A DNA stretch of 40,418 nt, taken from positions 1 through 40,418 of the forward strand of contig JABHNB010000002.1 of assembly GCA_018694115.1 (NCBI GenBank). The letters are read 5' to 3'. This document shows, piece by piece, positions 22,644 through 33,932 of this stretch. The position numbers and the translations under genes are program-made. Positions within the stretch are counted from its first letter, which is position 1. The number at the start of each line of letters is the position of its first letter. The notes beneath the pieces were generated by a model. The model worked only from the letters and a program-made list of their open reading frames with translations, did not search any database and was not told the DNA's origin. This stretch comes from an archaeon (GTDB taxonomy: Archaea > Nanobdellota > Nanobdellia > Pacearchaeales > GW2011-AR1).

Positions 22644-22925
22644 TCACTTCCCAACTTTAACCTTCGTTTTCATAAAAGTCTTATAATAACCCTCAATCAA
22701 ATCAAGTCCAGCATAACCAGCTAAGAAACTCAGAACACTTCCAAAGTTAAGTACAACACCAGAGAACGCCCCAACAGCGATAACTATCACAGCATAAATC
22801 CAAAACCCATTCCAAGATATTCTTCTAAACTGGAATGCCTTTAAGCTAACTACTAGCAACCTAACAATACCTCCAAGCATACCAAAACCTGAAGCAACTA
22901 AGATAGCGATTGTTTCAGGCATCAT
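22644..22925 (-). CDS. Small three-helix membrane protein, paralogue A
   Basis: The 93-residue protein has three hydrophobic segments (about 5-25, 40-58, 60-76). It shares LGG-[IL]-VR, LKA, LAGY-x-G-x-D and a final E...K pattern with the protein at 23547-23828, so the two are paralogues. Its ATGATG start overlaps the upstream stop by ATGA (22922-22925), a translationally coupled arrangement. It is the last gene of a four-gene operon. I do not recognise the family; its size and layout resemble holin-like proteins, but that is weak evidence. Confidence 0.6.
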   Translation of the reverse strand: MMPETIAILVASGFGMLGGIVRLLVVSLKAFQFRRISWNGFWIYAVIVIAVGAFSGVVLNFGSVLSFLAGYAGLDLIEGYYKTFMKTKVKVGK

Positions 22926-23194
22926 TTTTTAGTTACCTCCACTTTTTTAGATTTAACAGCCTTAATTATCCAACCAATAATAAATCCTAGGGCCGCACCA
23001 ATTAAAAAGTACGTTGCAAGAGAACCAAACATCCCAAATAGCAGGATAGGATTGTCAAAGATTGACGCAAGTAATGCACAAGAAAGACAGCCCAATTCAA
23101 CACAAGATCCAAAAGAACAATTCAAAATTAAAATTAAAATCACAGCTACCCATACGCCTATTCCAATCAATCCGCCTTTCAACCAAGATTTCAT
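22922..23194 (-). CDS. Small membrane protein with Cys cluster (90 aa)
   Basis: The protein has an N-terminal TM segment (LIGIGVWVAVILILIL), a loop with four Cys (NCSFGSCVELGCLSC), and one or two further hydrophobic segments ending in a basic tail (KSKKVEVTKK). The Cys cluster could form disulphides outside or bind metal. The start overlaps the stop of the upstream gene by ATGA (23191-23194), and the stop overlaps the next start likewise. Function unknown. Confidence 0.6.
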   Translation of the reverse strand: MKSWLKGGLIGIGVWVAVILILILNCSFGSCVELGCLSCALLASIFDNPILLFGMFGSLATYFLIGAALGFIIGWIIKAVKSKKVEVTKK

Positions 23195-23550
23195 TCTTCG
23201 TCCTCCCAGTTCTCCGGAACATTTCCTTGATTTAATCCAATTTTCGTAGCCGCTTCTAGCACCCGAATAGCTGCCGCTTCCTTAGCTTTGTTCCAATCAT
23301 CCCAGACAATAAGACTAACCAAACTCTTTCCTGATTCAATTGCTTCAGGGGCAGGGATAGTTGCAACCACATTATCCACCAAATAATGATATCTCTCTCC
23401 CTCCGGATCCATATCAATGTAAAGTATTCCGTATTTTTTAAGATCCTCAGAATATACTAATCCATCTAGAATCTTCTGACAAAATTCCCTTTCACTTCCC
23501 TGTTCAGCAGTATATTCCCCAGGACCATTTGTCTCATTTTGTTCGTTCAT
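23191..23550 (-). CDS. Acidic soluble protein in membrane-protein operon (119 aa)
   Basis: I do not recognise this acidic protein. It starts with a polar, probably disordered stretch (MNEQNETNGPGEYTAEQGSE), continues with strand-rich sequence (YGILYIDMDPEGERYHYLVDN) and ends in a helix plus acidic tail (PENWEDEE). It is the only soluble product of the four-gene operon and is ATGA-coupled on both sides, so it probably works with the membrane proteins. Confidence 0.6.
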   Translation of the reverse strand: MNEQNETNGPGEYTAEQGSEREFCQKILDGLVYSEDLKKYGILYIDMDPEGERYHYLVDNVVATIPAPEAIESGKSLVSLIVWDDWNKAKEAAAIRVLEAATKIGLNQGNVPENWEDEE

Positions 23551-23828
23551 TTTCTTATCATCACACTCTTTCCAATTGATCCTTTGAACACATTCTCCAA
23601 GATATCTGTTCCAACATAACCTGCCAAAGCAGCTATTCGATAATCTGAATTAAATACAATCCCCAACAAACCTCCAATGATAGCAGAAACAACCAGAGTA
23701 ATTAAGAAATGCCAAGGATGTATCTCAAATCCCTTAGAAGTTGCCTTTAATAAACCATAAAGTGCTCGAACAAGCCCCCCAAGAACTCCAACTAACATAG
23801 CCACAAAAATCACCTCAGTCATCACCAT
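23547..23828 (-). CDS. Small three-helix membrane protein, paralogue B
   Basis: The 93-residue protein is the first gene of the operon and a paralogue of the last (22644-22925): VLGGLVRALYGLLKA, WHFLITLVVSAIIGGLLGIVF, and LAGYVGTDILENVFK correspond segment by segment. ATG 23828 is preferred because a TATA element (23850-23857) is 25-26 nt upstream; the longer frame begins at TTG. Function unknown. Confidence 0.6.
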   Translation of the reverse strand: MVMTEVIFVAMLVGVLGGLVRALYGLLKATSKGFEIHPWHFLITLVVSAIIGGLLGIVFNSDYRIAALAGYVGTDILENVFKGSIGKSVMIRK

Positions 23829-23849
23829 TAACAAAACACGGTTAAGATG

Positions 23850-23857
23850 TATTTAAG
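23850..23857 (-). promoter_or_regulatory. TATA box of the four-gene membrane operon
   Basis: CTTAAATA on the minus strand, 25-26 nt upstream of ATG 23828; the only promoter-like element for the ATGA-coupled genes. Confidence 0.5.
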
Positions 23858-24449
23858 AGTTTTGATAAATTTCAAGGTCCCGAATCTCCCCCTTCAAATT
23901 AACCCTGGCTTGTTCTTCATACTTTTTCTGAAAATATTCCGTATGATAAATTTCTGGTCGATCAAGGAAACCTTTCAGTACAGCAGCCCTTCTCTCACGA
24001 TATTCTCCTTCAGAAACCCAAGAATACTCCTTTCGGATTCCATTACAATAATCTGTAAAAGCGTCTGCCGGATTTCCAAATATAGAAAGATCAATGTCTG
24101 TGGCTAAGGCCTCATCAATATTCTCGACAGGAGTCATATGATCCGTTGCGAGAATTATTCTTTTCACATGACTAATAAAAGAGCTAGGAGCCTCCTGCCA
24201 TAACAAAACTCGGGCCATATACTTTGCACTTTTCTGCTCATTATCTTTCGCCCCAGTATCATAGATAACATCATGCCCAATAAGCGCTACCTCTAACGCC
24301 AATGGATCCTCAGACAAATACTTAATCTTTTCAAAGCCCCTTAAACACTCCCCAACATGATCAAGATTATGGTAATGTCTATCCTTCTCCATATATCTCC
24401 TAAAAATATCCAGGAATGAATACTTTTGAAACGCGGCAGAGAACCTCAT
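23853..24449 (-). CDS. HD-superfamily metal-dependent phosphohydrolase (COG4339-like)
   Basis: The 198-residue protein shows the COG4339-type pattern: RHYHNLDHV near 24-32, the HD pair in ALIGHDVIYD (about 55-64), a helix DNEQKSAKYM, and a late ATDIDLSIFG. HD enzymes hydrolyse phosphate esters using one or two metals; the substrate for this group is not settled. Its ATG overlaps the coaD-coaE stop by ATGA (24446-24449), making it the last gene of the CoA operon. It may act on a CoA-related phosphoester, but that is only a context-based guess. Confidence 0.82.
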   Translation of the reverse strand: MRFSAAFQKYSFLDIFRRYMEKDRHYHNLDHVGECLRGFEKIKYLSEDPLALEVALIGHDVIYDTGAKDNEQKSAKYMARVLLWQEAPSSFISHVKRIILATDHMTPVENIDEALATDIDLSIFGNPADAFTDYCNGIRKEYSWVSEGEYRERRAAVLKGFLDRPEIYHTEYFQKKYEEQARVNLKGEIRDLEIYQNS

Positions 24450-25624
24450 TCACTCGCCTCAGATTTAAACAAGGGAAAATATTTCTCTAATTCTTTCATT
24501 GCCGCCCCATAATCTACTTCTCCAGTCGTATCCACTTCGTAAAGAAATCCGTGATCAAATTTTTCTTGTCCTTGCAAGATTAATTTCTTCTTAAGGTCTT
24601 GAGGTTGCTGTGCCTGAAATCTTATTTTGGTTTCTTCCTCAGATAAGCCATCTCGTTTTGATACTCTTGATAGTCTTTCATCTTCATCACAGCCAACTAA
24701 AATAGCATTATAATTTACCACAGAAAGCAACCCATATTTTGTAAGATATGCCGCATCCAATAAGACAACTCCTTTCATTTCTCTAACCGAATCTTCAATT
24801 CCCATCAAGGCAGGAGCCCTTAAAGTTTCCGAGAGTTGCTCCATTTTATCTGGATCCCTGAATACTCTTCTTGCTAGTTTTTTCTTATTCAAAACATCTC
24901 CATCAAAGACCACTCTTCCAAAATTCTTTTTTATCTGTTCCCTTACTTCCAAATTCACCGGAGAATTCCCAGTATACTGGGCCTGAATCAACTTATCAAA
25001 ATCTATATGATGGGCATCCTTTCCCTGGGCCCTAAGATGATCCACAAGCCCCCCACAAAATGTCGATTTTCCCGCACCCATATTCCCCGTAACTCCAACC
25101 AAACTCACGTTATTCATTCTTTCTTCAAGTGCCTGTTTCACAGCAGGATGAACATATTTGTCTACCATTCCCCCTTCAGAGACAACTGCCTTAACCATAC
25201 TTGAACTTGTAGTCCTGTTTCCTTCTGCAGCTGGTAAAATCACAGTTTGCAAGCCATACTCTGCGTTAAAATCGGCAAGGGTCATCTCATAATCAAAATC
25301 TTGAGCGTTACGAGAACCACGAACAACAAAATCCGCCCCAATTCGCCTTGCATAATTTCTTAATAATCCAGAAAATGGTTCTATAATAACTTTTGAGGGA
25401 TCAACTCCTGCAGAATAAACAGATTTCTTAGCTAGCTCTAATCTTTCATCCAAACTAAATAGATAATTCTTCTTGGAATTCTTACCCATAGCAAAATATA
25501 CCTTGTCAAAAAATCCGGTGTTAACGGCGGAAGCTAAACTCTGAACATGCCCATTATGTACCGGGTCTCCCGAAAGGGGATAAACAGCAAACTTCTTTTC
25601 TCTTGTCTCCTCAGGCCACCACAT
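24446..25624 (-). CDS. coaDE: Bifunctional phosphopantetheine adenylyltransferase / dephospho-CoA kinase (CoaD-CoaE fusion)
   Basis: The N-terminal domain (1-165) is a bacterial-type CoaD: YPLSGDPVHNGH with the HxGH nucleotidyltransferase motif (23-26), FVVRGSRNAQDFDYEMTLADFN typical of bacterial PPAT, and RTTSSS (137-142) in place of the ISSTxxR signature. The C-terminal domain (about 172-392) is an ATP-dependent CoaE with Walker A GNMGAGKST (180-188) and a DFDKL segment. It converts 4'-phosphopantetheine to CoA in two steps. Most archaea instead use an unrelated-class PPAT and a GTP-dependent kinase, so acquisition from bacteria or a eukaryote-like fusion (COASY has the same order) is notable. 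It overlaps coaB by 14 bp. Confidence 0.93.
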   Translation of the reverse strand: MWWPEETREKKFAVYPLSGDPVHNGHVQSLASAVNTGFFDKVYFAMGKNSKKNYLFSLDERLELAKKSVYSAGVDPSKVIIEPFSGLLRNYARRIGADFVVRGSRNAQDFDYEMTLADFNAEYGLQTVILPAAEGNRTTSSSMVKAVVSEGGMVDKYVHPAVKQALEERMNNVSLVGVTGNMGAGKSTFCGGLVDHLRAQGKDAHHIDFDKLIQAQYTGNSPVNLEVREQIKKNFGRVVFDGDVLNKKKLARRVFRDPDKMEQLSETLRAPALMGIEDSVREMKGVVLLDAAYLTKYGLLSVVNYNAILVGCDEDERLSRVSKRDGLSEEETKIRFQAQQPQDLKKKLILQGQEKFDHGFLYEVDTTGEVDYGAAMKELEKYFPLFKSEASE

Positions 25625-26369
25625 TTTCTTTCACCTCCAAACCATCATAAACCAAATCAACAAGTTTCCCGGCCAATTCATCCCGAGTAACTTCAGTTGC
25701 ACGCGTTGAGTCCTTATCCTTATGCAAAATAAGAGTCATGCTCTCTTTTCCCAATGAAGGCATCGTATTCGCAACAGTCATATCAGATCCGTTCTTATAT
25801 CCATGATTATACGATTTTTGCACAAGCTTCTCTTTACTTACATCTGCCAACAATTTGAATCCGACTTGAAAAACTTCAGGTCTCCATTTCTTAACTTCAG
25901 AGATCACCTTAGCATTCCTTTTTAGTTTAACATTCATCTCATCAAGATCCGAACTTAGTTTTCCATCTTGCTTGTCCGCAGAATAATCTCCAACCGCTGC
26001 AGCGAGCACAACAACATCAATATCCCGTGTCATCAAATCCTGCAATGTAGAATGGTAATCCTCAAAAGCCGCAGCACTATATTCTGAAAGATTAGCCCCG
26101 TACTCTCCAAATTCCTTATGAACCATCCTTAATCTTTCTAATTCTCCATCAAGCTCCTTTTCAGGGTCAAGATCCATAGATCTCCTAAATGGCCTTCTCG
26201 CCTGATGACCATACACATAGTGTACTTTGGCTCCTCGTTTCAAAAACTCTTCAGCTATTTTGGCACCAGTTTCCCCAGTACTAAAATTTCCTATATGACG
26301 CACATCATCAACTCGAGAGACAGTTCCACCACTTGTCACAACAACTTCTAATGGTTTTTTATTTTCCAT
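25611..26369 (-). CDS. coaB: Phosphopantothenoylcysteine synthetase (CoaB domain protein)
   Basis: The 252-residue protein begins with the CoaB nucleotide-binding loop TSGGTVSRVDDVRHIGNFSTGETG, followed by GAKIAEEFLKRGAKVHYVYG. It later has VVVLAAAVGDYSADK and VGFKLLADV, which match the DFP C-terminal domain. It condenses 4'-phosphopantothenate with cysteine. In most prokaryotes CoaB is fused to CoaC; here the two are separate genes with a Nudix gene between them. Start ATG 26369 overlaps the Nudix stop by 11 bp and the stop overlaps coaDE by 14 bp. Confidence 0.9.
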   Translation of the reverse strand: MENKKPLEVVVTSGGTVSRVDDVRHIGNFSTGETGAKIAEEFLKRGAKVHYVYGHQARRPFRRSMDLDPEKELDGELERLRMVHKEFGEYGANLSEYSAAAFEDYHSTLQDLMTRDIDVVVLAAAVGDYSADKQDGKLSSDLDEMNVKLKRNAKVISEVKKWRPEVFQVGFKLLADVSKEKLVQKSYNHGYKNGSDMTVANTMPSLGKESMTLILHKDKDSTRATEVTRDELAGKLVDLVYDGLEVKENVVA

Positions 26370-26889
26370 TTAATAAAAATTCCAAGGCATTTAATGTTTG
26401 ATGAGGAAATTTTCGTGAAGTGACTTTGTGAGGGCCATATTTTTCATTACCTAAGTCGTACCGAGAATACCAATTCAAAAGCCCTGCTTCAAATGTATCC
26501 GAAGTTATAAGGGCTATTGCATCCTTTGGAAAAAACCATCTCAAATCAACTACTTCACCACTATGGGGGCGAAATGGGCCTTCAGTAAATTCAAGTGCCG
26601 CAGAATAAAAATGGATCAAATACTGCTTGCCATAAAGAACAGGTTTACTTTCAAACATAAGCTTCTGAGAATGTATTCCTTCCTCATAACCAGTCTCCTC
26701 ACGAAACTCACGTTCCGCAGTCGCAATTAAATCTTTATCCCCCGGTGAATAGTGCCCTCCAGCAAAAGTCCACTCTCCAGGAAATCTTTCAGGAATATTC
26801 AATTTCTCATTGAAAAAACTTCTCTCAATCATGAACACTTCCCCTGAATGACTAACCGGGCACAATAACGCTGCTTTCTCAACTTCCAT
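26359..26889 (-). CDS. Nudix hydrolase, possible CoA pyrophosphatase
   Basis: The 176-residue protein has a Nudix box with variant spacing: GG (44-45), five residues, Asp51, eight residues, then REFREETGY (60-68). An acid after GGx5 followed by eight rather than seven residues is the pattern of CoA pyrophosphatase Nudix enzymes (NudL/NUDT7 group). The additional upstream UPF0035 signature is not clear, so substrate assignment rests on box spacing and the operon. It may recycle or limit CoA by cutting it to phosphopantetheine. ATG 26889 follows a GGGGGC stretch; the upstream TTG at 26901 is less likely. It overlaps coaC by 11 bp. Confidence 0.85.
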   Translation of the reverse strand: MEVEKAALLCPVSHSGEVFMIERSFFNEKLNIPERFPGEWTFAGGHYSPGDKDLIATAEREFREETGYEEGIHSQKLMFESKPVLYGKQYLIHFYSAALEFTEGPFRPHSGEVVDLRWFFPKDAIALITSDTFEAGLLNWYSRYDLGNEKYGPHKVTSRKFPHQTLNALEFLLNGK

Positions 26890-27445
26890 CTTCGCCCCCA
26901 AAATATTTTATTACTTCATTTACTAACGTTTCAGTCAATGGCATCTTGGCTTTTCCCTCACCGCCCCGCGGTTCAACCAATGTTATCCCATATTCTTCTG
27001 CCTGCGAAAGATTCTTTTTAAAAAAAGGATTGTTGTAAAGAGATTCGTGCATTGTTGGAGCCAAGTATACAGGTATATCTGACCCCAGAGCACTCGCAAC
27101 AAGAGAGGTGACATTATTATCTGCCACACCATTGAATATCTTATTTATTGTATTCATCGTTGCAGGAGCTACAACCACCATATCTTCCTTACATATATGT
27201 TCAGCTAAACCACTTAGTTCGACTACAACAGATCTTTCAGTAGCCCATTCAAGAGAAGCCCTGCCAACAAACTTAAGCGCTGACGGAGTCATGTATGCAT
27301 TAACTGTCGCACCATATCTCCGAAGATGTCTAGCAATTTTTGGAGTTTCTATCGCAGCTATTCCACCCGTTATCGCTAAGGCAATAGTCTTTCCTTCAAG
27401 TTGGTCACCAATTCTATCTACTTGATGATCTTGATTTTTCTTCAT
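26879..27445 (-). CDS. coaC: Phosphopantothenoylcysteine decarboxylase (CoaC, flavoprotein)
   Basis: The 188-residue HFCD-family flavoprotein has ITGGIAAIETPKIARHLRRYG for FMN binding, the catalytic His83 region (GLAEHICKED), VVAPATMNTINKIFNGVADN (the PASANT-like motif with Asn98), and a substrate clamp region APTMHESLYNN. It decarboxylates phosphopantothenoylcysteine to 4'-phosphopantetheine. It is separate from CoaB, unlike the usual Dfp fusion. The start overlaps the amidohydrolase stop by ATGA (27442-27445). Confidence 0.92.
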   Translation of the reverse strand: MKKNQDHQVDRIGDQLEGKTIALAITGGIAAIETPKIARHLRRYGATVNAYMTPSALKFVGRASLEWATERSVVVELSGLAEHICKEDMVVVAPATMNTINKIFNGVADNNVTSLVASALGSDIPVYLAPTMHESLYNNPFFKKNLSQAEEYGITLVEPRGGEGKAKMPLTETLVNEVIKYFGGEDGS

Positions 27446-28293
27446 TTCAAAAACCTCCGAGCATTATTGTAATAGACATCCTGCTTATCCTTGTCCGAAA
27501 AGTCCTTCATTGCTTCTTCAACAAAGTATACCGAGTCTTCGTGAGTCTGAACTGGAAAATCCGTTCCAAACATAAGTCTCTTAGGACCACACTCTCCTAA
27601 AAATCTCTTAACTTCCTCAACCATTGCAGGCACTTGACCTTGATCGTACTTTGAAGAAACTAATCCACTAACATCTGTATAGATATTGGGATTTCTTTTC
27701 ACGGTTTTAACTAAATCCTCAAAGAAAGGTTTTGACATATGACTCGCCAAGAAATTCATCTCAGGATTATCTTCCGCAAGAAATTCTAAATCGCTTGCCT
27801 TGACCATATTCGCCACAGAAGATCTACCAAATTTCTTTTTAGTAGAATAAGATTGCCCACAATGAAACATCATTGGAAGAAAATTCCTTCGAGCAACAGA
27901 GACAACATCTGCAAATCTATCCGAATGAAGATCTATCTCTTGATAACTAGTATAAACCTTGACTCCCTTCAAGACACCCATATCATCCAATTCCTTAAGT
28001 TCATTTATCCCTTGAAATAAATAATTCTCGAAGTCTAAACTCCCAAATAACAAAAACTCAGGCCTATCCCTTATCCAATTGTAAAGTCTAAAGTTAGAAA
28101 CTCCACTAGACTTATGGGGAAAATATGTGGCTAGCAAAACTGTCTTTTCGATGTTATGTTTTTCCATTTCTCTCTTCAGAGCTTCAACATCTGCAGATTG
28201 AGGAACAACACCCTTCACTACACGATTTGTTGTGTGGGCATGAACATCTATCTTCTTCATTGGACTTGATTTTTTCTTTGTTTGTTCTTCCAT
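27442..28293 (-). CDS. Amidohydrolase-2 family metal-dependent hydrolase/decarboxylase
   Basis: The 283-residue TIM-barrel protein has the family metal ligands: HxH in IDVHAH (18, 20), MFHCG, ASHMSKPF and FGTDFP with the final Asp. Members include ACMSD and other decarboxylases as well as hydrolases; the reaction here is unknown. It heads the CoA operon (ATGA overlap with coaC), so a reaction on a CoA precursor such as beta-alanine or pantothenate metabolism is possible but not shown. A TATA box AATATAAGC (plus-strand reading, 28315-28323) is 25-26 nt before ATG 28293. Confidence 0.85.
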   Translation of the reverse strand: MEEQTKKKSSPMKKIDVHAHTTNRVVKGVVPQSADVEALKREMEKHNIEKTVLLATYFPHKSSGVSNFRLYNWIRDRPEFLLFGSLDFENYLFQGINELKELDDMGVLKGVKVYTSYQEIDLHSDRFADVVSVARRNFLPMMFHCGQSYSTKKKFGRSSVANMVKASDLEFLAEDNPEMNFLASHMSKPFFEDLVKTVKRNPNIYTDVSGLVSSKYDQGQVPAMVEEVKRFLGECGPKRLMFGTDFPVQTHEDSVYFVEEAMKDFSDKDKQDVYYNNARRFLK

Positions 28294-28314
28294 ACTAAAA
28301 AGACCAAATAACGA

Positions 28315-28374
28315 AATATAAGCTTTATCTATAAATCTTTAAAGAAGCTTATACTTTTAGAAAAGCTTATAAAA
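28315..28374. promoter_or_regulatory. Divergent promoters with three AAGCTT sites
   Basis: The two TATA boxes, 28315-28323 for the CoA operon and 28365-28374 for the AbrB-PhoU gene, each overlap a palindromic AAGCTT (28320-28325 and 28363-28368). A third AAGCTT lies between them (28345-28350). AAGCTTATA-like sites repeated over both promoters suggest a shared regulator, possibly the AbrB-PhoU protein itself. Confidence 0.5.
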
Positions 28375-28394
28375 ACCAATAACTAATAGAGACT

Positions 28395-29294
28395 ATGAAA
28401 ATAATTGAAAGAAACTTACAAGAAATAGGGAAATCGTTATTTGTAAGCTTGCCAAAGGATTGGACTCGGACTCTCAAGTTAAAGAAAGGATCAAAAATTA
28501 AAATGACCATGTCGGATCAAGGAAATCTGATAATCTCTCCAGAATTTCTAAAAAAAGATTCAAATAAAACTTCAACGATAGATTTTGATGAAAATTTCGG
28601 AAGGAATTTCTTCAGAGATTACTTCCATGGTAGCGGAAAGATAACGATCAACATCCCAACAGACATTAAAGAAAAAAGCTTGAAATCTATCTATTCATTT
28701 CTAGAAAAATTCATGAATACCCAGATAATTGAAGAAACAGCATCGAAGATTGTTGTCAAAAGTTTCAAGATAGAAGAGCTTTCAATCGAAGAATGCCTAA
28801 AGAGAATGCAGTATATTTCTTCAGATATGATTGATGAGGCCCTGGGGAAAAATAGCAAAACAAAAATTAACGAATTAGAAAAATCCCTAACTAAGTTTTA
28901 CTTTATTCTTGTAATGCAGATAAGAAGATTCCTTGATGAGGGAAAATTCACCCAAGAAAATCAAATATCGCTAACAAGGGCCCTAGATTTTAGAATGGCG
29001 GGAGAAAAAATAGAGCGAGTTTCAGATATAATCAAAGATTTCCCAGACATCACAAACAAAGAAGTCTCCAAAATCCTTGAAAGAACAAATGAACTTTATC
29101 AAAAATCATTCGCATCATTCGTAAATAAAAATTATGAAAAATCCCTAGAGCTATCAAACAAATCTGAACTTCAAGATCTTCAAAAACTGAAAAACAAAGC
29201 ATTAAAATCAAAAGACCTCGCACTTCAATCACAGGTAATCAATCTTGATAGGATTCTCGATTATGTGAAGGAAATATACTCACTGACTAGGTAA
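28395..29294 (+). CDS. AbrB/SpoVT-PhoU regulator (phosphate uptake regulator-like)
   Basis: The 299-residue protein has an N-terminal SpoVT/AbrB swapped-hairpin DNA-binding domain (about 1-50: SLFVSLPKDWTRTLKLKKGSK) and a C-terminal PhoU-like helical bundle (about 120-299), as in archaeal PhoU-family regulators. Such proteins are thought to regulate phosphate transport genes; no Pst transporter is present in the window. It is divergent from the CoA operon, and its own promoter carries AAGCTT sites. The TATA box is 25 nt from ATG 28395. Confidence 0.88.
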   Translation: MKIIERNLQEIGKSLFVSLPKDWTRTLKLKKGSKIKMTMSDQGNLIISPEFLKKDSNKTSTIDFDENFGRNFFRDYFHGSGKITINIPTDIKEKSLKSIYSFLEKFMNTQIIEETASKIVVKSFKIEELSIEECLKRMQYISSDMIDEALGKNSKTKINELEKSLTKFYFILVMQIRRFLDEGKFTQENQISLTRALDFRMAGEKIERVSDIIKDFPDITNKEVSKILERTNELYQKSFASFVNKNYEKSLELSNKSELQDLQKLKNKALKSKDLALQSQVINLDRILDYVKEIYSLTR

Positions 29295-31422: not shown

Positions 31423-32322
31423 CTAATCAATAATTCTATTAATTGGAACTTCAACAATCCCCTCAGCGCCCGCCTCTTTGAGTAAAGGGATTATATCTCT
31501 AGCAACTTTCTTATCTATCACAGTAATTACATCACACCATTCAGGATCACTCAGTGTCGAAATTGTGGGGGTATTCATTGCAGGAAGGATATTCAATATC
31601 CCTTGGAGAGATGATTTTTTAACATTCATAAGCATCTCTACTTTAGATTCAGCAGTTAAAACGCCCTTCAATAACATGGCCAAATTCTCAATTTTCTTCT
31701 TTTTCCAAGAATCTTTAACAGATTCTTTGTTGGCAATAATTCTTGTAGTAGATTCTAGTAATGTATCAATTATTCTAAGATTATTTGCCCTAAGGGATGA
31801 GCCTGTCTCTGTAACGTCCACAATAGCGTCTGCGATACCCCTGGCTTTGATTTCAGTAGCTCCCCAAGAGAACTCCACCTTTGCATTTACGCCCTTGTTT
31901 CTGAGATACTCTTTAGTTATATTGATTACCTCTGTAGCAACAATTTTTCCGTTCAAATCTTGGACACTTTTGATATCAGATTCATCAGCTACTGCCAAAA
32001 CCCACTTCACAGGTTTCTTACTCTGCTTAGCATAAATCAATTCTTCAATTTCCACAACATCTGAATTAGTCTCCCTTACCCAATCATATCCAGTAATCCC
32101 CGCATCCAAAACTCCATCTTCAACATATCGCGCCATCTCTTGAGACCTTAGTAATACGCATTCAATCTCAGGATCATCAATTGTAGGAAAGTAAGATCTT
32201 CCGGGATTTCCCAGAGCATAACCTGCTTTTTTGAATAGTTCAAAGGTTGATTCTTGGAGACTACCTTTTGGTATCCCAATTACAATTTTCTTTTCATCAG
32301 ATGTTTTAGTTAGTTGAATCAT
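31423..32322 (-). CDS. hisG: ATP phosphoribosyltransferase HisG, long form
   Basis: HisG joins ATP and PRPP in the first step of histidine synthesis. The 299-residue protein has [16 protein letters not shown] at the N-terminus, the substrate loop [10 protein letters not shown] and [19 protein letters not shown]-terminal regulatory domain (about 215-299: [13 protein letters not shown]... [15 protein letters not shown]) marks the long, histidine-inhibited form that does not need HisZ. ATG 32322 is chosen because CCGGAGG (32329-32335) lies six bases upstream. It overlaps the end of hisS-hisI by 17 bp, so the two are translationally coupled. Confidence 0.93.
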
Positions 32323-33850
32323 ATACATCCTCCGGATTGAAGACTTTTTTGTCAACAATTTTTAATTCGCCACCATTATATTCCCTGAAGAAACAAGAAG
32401 GATATCCTTCATGACATGCAGCACCGCCAACTTGATTCACCCTTAGTAAAATAGTATCTCTATCACAATCCAATCTTATTTCCTTAACTTCTTGAAAATT
32501 TCCAGATTCCTCGCCCTTTAACCAAAGTTTATTTCGGCTCCTACTAAAATAGCACGCCTTACCACCATCAAGAGTTTTGTCCCAGGATTCCTTATTCATA
32601 TATGCCATCATTAATATTTTTCCAGTTTCAGCATCTTGGACGACAGTAGGAACTAATCCCCCCGCCTTAGAAAAATCGGGCTCTGAACCACTAGTTTCTC
32701 CCAAGATCTCTGATTCACTCACTGTTTTTTCTATCCCACTATTCAGGTCTTTTATTTTATAGGATTTATTTGAAACTTCTTTTTCTCCAACGAAAACTAC
32801 CTTGTCTATTTTGGTACTATTGGCATAATCTAGTGCTTTAGAGATTTTATTAGAACTTAAGATGCAAGGATATCCTTTATCCCTCATTTTTTCAACAACC
32901 TTTATTGCTTGTTCTTCTTGACCAATAGATAGTACCATATATCTTTCCACATCTTCTAATTTTTTATCTAATAGTATTGCTAATCTATCCAATCCAAGAG
33001 AAAGTCCAGTAGATTGTACGCCTTCAAACATGAAGCTTCCTCCCGCAGTAATTGTTTCCTTAATTTTCTTAGTTTTAACTTCAAATACAGAACCATTGTA
33101 ATAACTCAATCCCCTTGCAAGACTCGGCAAAAATGTAACTTCTACACCATACTGTTCGCAATAATCTTTCAATTCCTTGATTTCCTTGTAAGCCTCATAT
33201 TTTTCAAAATATTCTTCGGGCTGTTTAAAGATTTCCAATAAATCCTGTGCCATGTAATTTCTAAGATTATTGTAAACCTCATCCTCATCAAGTTTATCCA
33301 ATTTATCGATCTCCTTGATTACCTTATTCCAATCCATCTTTTCAATATTAGATTTTTCCAAAATTTCATTCAATAATTTTCTATTATTGATATTAATTAC
33401 AAATTCTATATCTAATTTAGTCAAAACCCTTTTTACAACTGCTAAAACTTCTGCTTCATCCCGAATTTCTGAACCCACCGTATCAACATCACACTGTACA
33501 AATTGTCTTAACCTATTTCCCGCTACCGGTTCATCCCTAAAAACAGGACCAATAGCATATCTTTTGTAAGGTCTTTTCTTACCCTGCATTAATCTTTTTA
33601 GCTGGAAAGTCATTTCATATCTTAATGCCAGGTCTCTTCCACCCTTATCGGTTAATTTGAAGACATCTGAAACAGCTTCATCACTTTCATTATCTCCTTT
33701 TACAAAATCTCTATATTCCACAACAGGAGCATCTGCAGGTTCAAAACCATAAAGTTCAAAACTCTCTACGAGAATTTTTCTAATCGCTTCTCTTTTCCTA
33801 GCTTCTTCGCCAGTAAATTCCTTGAAGCCCTTAACAAGAGGATATTCCAT
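32306..33850 (-). CDS. hisS-hisI: Histidyl-tRNA synthetase fused to phosphoribosyl-AMP cyclohydrolase (HisRS-HisI)
   Basis: Residues 1-390 are a class II HisRS: FRDEP motif 2 (104-108), QCDVDTVGS, the His motif as ARGLSYYNG (245-253, Ser in place of the usual Asp), GLDRL of motif 3 (286-290), and an anticodon-binding domain to about 385. The GGRYD motif is replaced by GGSFM. Residues about 395-514 are His[25 protein letters not shown], and [15 protein letters not shown] with the zinc Cys residues, catalysing ring opening of PR-AMP in histidine synthesis. This fusion is unusual. ATG 33850 is 10 nt after the tRNA-His 3' end, so it is probably read from the same transcript; a HisZ-like role is less likely because HisG here is long form. 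Confidence 0.93.
32329..32335 (-). promoter_or_regulatory. Shine-Dalgarno fixing the hisG start
   Basis: CCGGAGG, six bases before ATG 32322, within the hisI coding end; excludes the in-frame ATG 32328 and the longer start at 32358. Confidence 0.65.
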
Positions 33851-33860
33851 TTGAATATAA

Positions 33861-33932
33861 GGCGGAAGGGGGGAATTGAACTCCCGTCTTACGGACCACA
33901 ACCGCACATTCTACCATTGAACTACAACCGCC
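33861..33932 (-). tRNA. tRNA-His (GUG), upstream of hisS
   Basis: The cloverleaf runs from G-1 (33932) to C73 (33861). The encoded G-1 opposite C73 is the tRNA-His identity pair. The anticodon stem TGCGG/CCGTA with loop TTGTGGT gives anticodon GTG; the D arm is GTTC/GAAT. The acceptor GCGGTTG/CTTCCGC has two U-U mismatches (5-68, 6-67), and the T stem GGGAG/CCCCC has one A-C mismatch, so pairing is weaker than usual. No intron and no CCA are encoded. It is followed after 10 nt by the hisS-hisI ATG. Confidence 0.9.

Follow-up and report, generated by a model that had tools for sequence, protein, structure and literature searches.

Two uncharacterised, conserved families, an HD-superfamily protein and an amidohydrolase, accompany the CoA genes of a small-genome archaeon

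The present work concerns a cluster of genes for the synthesis of coenzyme A (CoA) in an archaeon with a small genome. The window, by which is meant the whole stretch of DNA that was analysed, is one 40-kb contig (40,418 nucleotides), and it belongs to an archaeal assembly of 0.9 Mb which is 82.7% complete. Six genes lie together on its minus strand, and they encode an amidohydrolase (AmH), CoaC, a Nudix hydrolase, CoaB, a fusion of CoaD with CoaE, and an HD protein. The original prediction for this DNA described a six-gene cluster in which every junction overlaps by 4-14 bp and which completes CoA synthesis from phosphopantothenate, and it is right on each of these points: all of the open reading frames (ORFs) lie where they were predicted and run in one direction, the successive overlaps from AmH to HD are 4, 11, 11, 14 and 4 bp, and recognisable domains for the four steps catalysed by CoaB, CoaC, CoaD and CoaE are all present. 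The overlap between CoaC and Nudix is 11 bp if Nudix begins at the ATG at 26889, and 23 bp if it begins at the TTG at 26901. The genes are as follows.

27442..28293, minus strand: AmH, a predicted Amidohydro_2 (TIM-barrel) protein whose orthologue group is linked to CoaC (PF04909, 7.7e-24)
26879..27445, minus strand: CoaC, a phosphopantothenoylcysteine decarboxylase-type flavoprotein with a variant PTMH motif (PF02441, 1.8e-25; TIGR00521, 2.8e-38)
26359..26889, minus strand: Nudix hydrolase, alternative TTG start at 26901 (PF00293, 1.2e-13)
25611..26369, minus strand: CoaB, a stand-alone phosphopantothenate-cysteine ligase (PF04127 (DFP), 3.2e-30; PRK06732, 1.5e-38; 2gk4, 1.9e-19)
25121..25624, minus strand: CoaD domain of the fused gene, a bacterial-type phosphopantetheine adenylyltransferase (PPAT) (TIGR01510, 6e-34, above cut-off, residues 13-169; PPATs in the PDB, 1e-24)
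24446..25120, minus strand: CoaE domain of the fused gene, a dephospho-CoA kinase with the P-loop GNMGAGKS (PF01121, 1.4e-18, above cut-off; solved dephospho-CoA kinases, 9e-13)
23853..24449, minus strand: predicted HD-superfamily phosphohydrolase, CoaD/CoaE partner, found as a fusion with, or as a neighbour of, CoaD(E) in archaea, in a bacterial metagenome-assembled genome (MAG) and in phages

The cluster, whose genes are presumably co-transcribed, is a CoA operon of a known kind which carries two uncharacterised, conserved partner families, HD and AmH. CoaC, CoaB, CoaD, CoaE, Nudix and Amidohydro_2 can be assigned to their families with confidence, solved relatives are available for the first four of these, and CoaD and CoaE form a single polypeptide of 392 aa. 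The CoaC of the window has PTMH in place of PxMN and is without the flap Cys, while G159 and G195 keep both the PxMN motif and the cysteine; because a His at the Asn position is shared by the solved mycobacterial CoaBC chain 6tgv, the PTMH variant is not read as a loss of function.

The evidence which ties the HD gene to CoA metabolism is the recurrence of its linkage to CoaD. When a profile of the HD family was run on 378 genomes of the class, and the CoaD profile TIGR01510 on an equal number drawn alike, strong HD homologues (E<1e-40) were found in 15/378 genomes and CoaD in 35/378 (34 above the cut-off, plus G194). Of these 15, ten, including the genome of the window, also have CoaD, and in every one of the ten a CoaD copy is either fused to HD or lies next to it; the hypergeometric probability of this co-occurrence, uncorrected for kinship, is 3e-8. 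By their labels the ten genomes span eight families (f1, f22 twice, f35, f59, f64, f67 twice, f78 and f85), and the linkage is present in two further family-level relatives, as a CoaD-HD fusion in G036 and as overlapping genes in G052. The linkage takes several forms: CoaD-HD fusions of ~360-400 aa (L004, L090-L093, L095, L102), a CoaD-CoaE-HD triple fusion of 586 aa (L121, in G396), and CoaDE followed by an overlapping HD gene (the window, L119 and L120), the overlap in G410 being 4 bp as it is in the window. It extends to a bacterial MAG, in which the CoaD and HD genes overlap and a bacterial L19-like ORF was recognised nearby by eye (L036), and to viruses, where HD precedes a fused CoaDE on the contigs L340/L341, L343, L355 and L356, CoaD overlaps HD on L350, and the 462-kb phage LR756500 has a 386-aa CoaD-HD fusion (L363, 2851-4011). 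The contigs from IMG/VR are taken to be viral on the strength of that collection and of the DNA ligase, exonuclease and RNA-binding-protein families of phage type encoded nearby, with no capsid genes seen in the stretches read. On L355 an ORF resembling an NMN adenylyltransferase-Nudix protein lies within 5 kb of HD/CoaDE, a combination which suggests phage cofactor salvage.

A single clade of CoaD-linked HD proteins is marginally rejected (p-AU 0.044), so that the linkage may go back to more than one origin or exchange. Six genomes (G052, G225, G294, G339, G393 and G407) keep CoaD-HD while lacking a CoaB domain, a CoaE above the cut-off, and DUF359, which we take to be the arCOG04076 family of dephospho-CoA kinases; since these assemblies are 85-97% complete, it is unlikely that the gap is shared by chance. 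The persistence of CoaD-HD without CoaBC, a CoaE above the cut-off or DUF359 therefore ties HD to the CoaD step and not to the pathway as a whole.

The HD protein itself is predicted to belong to the HD superfamily by its H...HD...D metal motif and by the all-helical HD fold of its model. The motif is intact: the conserved metal-motif residues are H27, H31, H59, D60, D118 and D120, and the H/HD/D pattern is invariant in 31 aligned members of the family and nearly so in 134. The window protein has no Pfam match at E<=0.01, while PF01966 (HD) is matched by 9/31 other members, with a best value of 2e-5. Its AlphaFold model has a pLDDT of 94 and resembles the HD/cyclic-nucleotide phosphodiesterase superfamily. 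A sequence search for a solved homologue returned none, and a profile search of solved structures gave only weak matches, among them BH2835 and YedJ, which are HD proteins. A Y-H-x-x-x-H stretch resembles a motif of cyclic-nucleotide phosphodiesterases, and serves as a lead and not as a test. The same genome contains a second, divergent paralogue away from the coa genes (G000:C3 914-1330, E 3e-13; L138, ORF 815-1432).

The second partner family is AmH, which is assigned to the Amidohydro_2 superfamily by its PF04909 match together with putative metal ligands HxH, H, H and D, readable in the sequence as HAH, FHCG, SHMS and GTDF; a sequence search found no solved homologue. Among 300 genomes searched, the closest homologues were 58% (G119) and 50% (G179) identical and the next only 27%, and a further orthologue, which that search did not list, was found in G392 by way of its CoaBC locus. 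The orthologues in G179 and G392 adjoin CoaBC and the one in G119 is one gene away, in a layout much like that of the window, so that a close AmH orthologue stands beside CoaC or CoaBC in 4/4 genomes where one was found. The CoaC domains of G119, G179 and G392 are also the closest to that of the window (56-64%).

Upstream of AmH, and divergent from the operon, lies a gene for a putative regulator, separated from it by a short spacer with conserved elements.

28395..29294, plus strand: candidate regulator of the operon, an AbrB/MazE-type DNA-binding and PhoU-like protein (PF04014, 1.8e-6)
28294..28394, no strand: spacer that separates the regulator gene from the operon, a putative control region, with AAGCTTATA/TATAAGCTT at 28317, 28345 and 28363 and nowhere else in the window
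28328..28347, plus strand: conserved 20-mer TCTATAAATCTTTAAAGAAG, putative operator, found exactly in the equivalent spacers of G036 (L235) and G179 (L230)

The PhoU-like C-terminus is weak, with E=0.095 in the window protein and 3e-4 in the homologue at L233, both below the Pfam cut-off. Homologues of the regulator which are 62, 45 and 37% identical stand divergent to CoaBC or AmH in G036, G179 and G119, another, identified by the beginning of its ORF, lies beside the CoaBC of G392, and in its own assembly the regulator is the sole match to its homologues. At up to 3 mismatches, 0.03 occurrences of the 20-mer are expected in the window, and beyond the three spacers it was found at no other independent locus among those searched. 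Its flanks match too, as the palindrome AAGTTTAAACTT in G036 and G179 and as the variant AAGCTTATACTT in the window. TATA-like sequences can be read ~27 nt before both start codons, and because these boxes overlap AAGCTTATA on both sides, the simplest reading is that the protein would regulate its own gene as well as the operon.

A possible mechanism can be assembled from these elements if it is borne in mind that CoaD joins 4'-phosphopantetheine to ATP. In this mechanism CoaB, CoaC and the fused CoaD-CoaE synthase would make CoA from 4'-phosphopantothenate, the divergent AbrB/PhoU-like protein probably controls the operon, the HD protein would be a dedicated partner of CoaD, acting as a metal-dependent phosphodiesterase or phosphatase which handles 4'-phosphopantetheine, and AmH would be a CoaC-linked hydrolase of some pantoyl, pantothenoyl or cysteine intermediate. 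The probability of this reading as a whole is put at roughly 0.55. As to the direction of the HD step, supply is slightly favoured: HD may free phosphopantetheine from CoA or from holo-carrier proteins for reuse by CoaD, a tentative proposal which is preferred because CoaD-HD persists in genomes without an upstream maker of the substrate and because phages carry CoaD-HD. Removal of phosphopantetheine by HD is rated only a little lower than its release.

The mechanism has partial parallels in known systems. The eukaryotic CoA synthase COASY resembles the CoaDE of the window in that a single polypeptide holds both PPAT and dephospho-CoA kinase, but the PPAT of the window is the bacterial-type CoaD, whereas COASY uses another PPAT family. 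We know of no case in which AcpH is fused to CoaD. Like the HD protein, AcpH is a metal phosphohydrolase of the HD superfamily; it is a phosphodiesterase which frees 4'-phosphopantetheine, the substrate of CoaD, from carrier proteins (PMC8557913). A phosphatase domain fused to an enzyme of the CoA pathway is found in PANK4, whose DUF89 domain dephosphorylates 4'-phosphopantetheine and so controls flux by limiting CoA synthesis (PMC9352595), but this domain belongs to a different family and its fusion partner is a pantothenate kinase, not PPAT.

The PANK4 precedent is also the basis of the alternative in which HD is a house-cleaning or rate-limiting phosphatase that dephosphorylates 4'-phosphopantetheine, or its oxidised dead-end forms, ahead of CoaD. 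Such gatekeeping would fit a fusion to the next enzyme, but CoaD-HD persists where no CoaBC makes phosphopantetheine, and the destruction of substrate seems pointless in phages that carry HD with CoaDE, so that this role is judged improbable, if worth retaining.

An alternative of similarly low standing assigns the turnover of CoA to the Nudix protein, which would hydrolyse CoA to 4'-phosphopantetheine within the operon. The original prediction had taken the spacing of the Nudix box, GGx5-D-x8-RE, as a match to CoA pyrophosphatases and had proposed that synthesis and turnover are coupled. The spacing is as described, it aligns without gaps to the CoA diphosphatase NUDT7, and NUDT7, which shares it with NudL, is the best solved relative of the window Nudix, but the similarity is weak (E=0.004), NUDT16-type and other Nudix enzymes lie within about tenfold, and the specificity for CoA is only suggestive; the GGx5Dx8RE spacing also occurs outside the enzymes that act on CoA. 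In Nudix CoA diphosphatases an upstream CoA motif, LLTxR..x3Gx3FPGG, is present, and against this definition the window protein (ERS..ERFPGEWTFAGG, FAGG) is an incomplete match with an insertion. ORFs resembling other Nudix genes do adjoin coa loci in G410 and G179, but they look like different families, and no orthologue of the window Nudix was found near coa genes, its closest homologues in the class (26-32%) being located elsewhere. The proposed coupling is thus conjectural, and the Nudix gene alone is likely to be an unrelated passenger.

Less likely still is a role for HD at the nucleotide end of the pathway, where it would take the 3'-phosphate off CoA or 3',5'-ADP, or else hydrolyse the pyrophosphate that the CoaD reaction releases, and so pull or reverse the CoaDE steps. 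Nucleotide phosphates are commonly hydrolysed by HD enzymes, HD adjoins CoaE as well as CoaD in the window, L119 and L120, and the linked viral locus L355 also bears NAD-type nucleotide genes; HD is, however, more often fused to CoaD in genomes without any CoaE above the cut-off. The remaining explanation, that HD, AmH and Nudix are all unrelated passengers, derives some support from the compactness of a genome whose short spacers make neighbours overlap by default, from the lack of conservation of Nudix in the neighbourhoods examined and from the position of most bacterial HD homologues away from coa genes, but it is very improbable given that in-frame fusions and overlaps recur across archaeal families, a bacterium and phages and that all four close AmH orthologues adjoin CoaC, and for HD the repeated fusions with CoaD/CoaE lead to its rejection.

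The reading of HD as a CoaD partner that handles phosphopantetheine must be set against several observations which count against it. Foldseek matches to the HD model reach only the level of the phosphodiesterase/HD superfamily (best E 0.012), and a specific fold assignment was given up. Pfam scans of the window HD and of 31 family members gave no AcpH-family match at E<=1, so HD is not a recognisable sequence relative of AcpH, and as membership of that family is unsupported, HD can at most be said to work like it. The literature searched yielded no biochemical work on this HD family, and COG4339, the name given to the family here, was unmatched in it. The complete six-gene order occurs in the window alone among the sampled genomes, and a CoaDE match was found in 0/15 genomes of the same genus that were examined. 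Coa genes are missing from the surroundings of most free-standing HD homologues in bacteria, and the ancestral role of HD may therefore differ; clustering of the ORFs around 80 loci of free-standing bacterial HD genes gave lineage-specific neighbours only, none of which reveals a function. Supply and removal of phosphopantetheine, finally, cannot be separated by sequence.

It is nonetheless very probable that HD and AmH are CoA-associated, and probable that they are real but undescribed parts of CoA metabolism, which agrees with the suggestion of the original prediction that the two may be undescribed CoA-pathway enzymes. In the neighbourhood survey both families were found to be conserved beside coa genes, HD as a fusion or neighbour of CoaD/CoaE in many distantly related genomes and AmH beside CoaC or CoaBC wherever a close orthologue was found. 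That part of the earlier interpretation is supported, the Nudix coupling is conjectural, and the divergent regulator and the intergenic element had been overlooked.

How phosphopantothenate is supplied in this archaeon bears on the same pathway. PF03309 and PF02006 are absent from the genome (83% complete assembly), and nothing that matches a pantothenate kinase of type II or III, PoK, PPS or PanB/C/D turned up in the whole assembly, a CoaA-type PanK not having been searched for. PoK and PPS have been reported as missing in Nanoarchaeota and Nanohaloarchaeota, and the archaeal dephospho-CoA kinase in Nanoarchaeota and some other DPANN archaea (PMC6650551). No close relatives of the split CoaB were found in the class sample, where the other genomes mostly have a fused CoaBC. 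In G194, in which no CoaB was found, the next gene after CoaD-CoaE and HD, which runs the same way, resembles type II pantothenate kinase (L119, 1770-2546; Fumble, 2e-9), and in other genomes of the class (L236, L238, L239, L241 and L242) CoaBC is clustered with ORFs resembling PanB, PanC, pantoate kinase, PPS or type II PanK, in differently composed pathways. In two genomes CoaBC is overlapped by an uncharacterised ORF of ~360 aa (MKTL[FY]VAG...; L233 8627-9712 and L235 2921-3991), which has an Aldolase_II domain at its C-terminus (E about 1e-6) and is possibly a further CoA-linked enzyme. A weak CoaE-like match at G000:C2 14872-15165 was rejected as a second CoaE, as it falls in the N-terminal region of a protein that, by eye, resembles a deaminase in its C-terminal half.

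Elsewhere in the window, several small ORFs lie beyond the HD gene on the same strand (22644-23834), of which three are apparently membrane proteins; among these small ORFs, one weakly matches a holin-like family (PF16083, 9e-4, below cut-off). At 32306-33907 a 533-aa ORF appears, by eye, to join a histidyl-tRNA synthetase (or HisZ) to a HisI-like domain at the C-terminus; it overlaps an ORF at 31423-32358 that looks HisG-like, and a tRNA-His gene is located at 33860-33932.

Although the synthesis of CoA is often regarded as a settled matter, it was only in 2019 that a fusion to PPAT led to the identification of the archaeal dephospho-CoA kinase, arCOG04076 (PMC6650551). The same logic, in which a PPAT fusion exposes a CoA enzyme, applies here, although the window differs in having a bacterial-type CoaD, a P-loop CoaE and an HD partner, DUF359 not having been found in its genome, and fusion evidence of the PPAT type now points to an HD hydrolase. 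In its most far-reaching and still speculative form, the proposal is that the HD family would be an undescribed CoA enzyme which releases or removes phosphopantetheine and moves with CoaD or CoaDE among reduced-genome archaea, bacteria and phages, that AmH would be a second new enzyme at the CoaC stage, and that the AbrB/PhoU-like protein would be a dedicated regulator of archaeal CoA synthesis. If the proposed role of HD is correct, it would add an enzyme to CoA metabolism and would help to explain the use of CoaD in reduced-genome archaea that have no CoaBC or CoaE; it would also suggest that phages manipulate the phosphopantetheine of their hosts, and the regulator and its intergenic element would offer a candidate for the transcriptional control of CoA synthesis in archaea.

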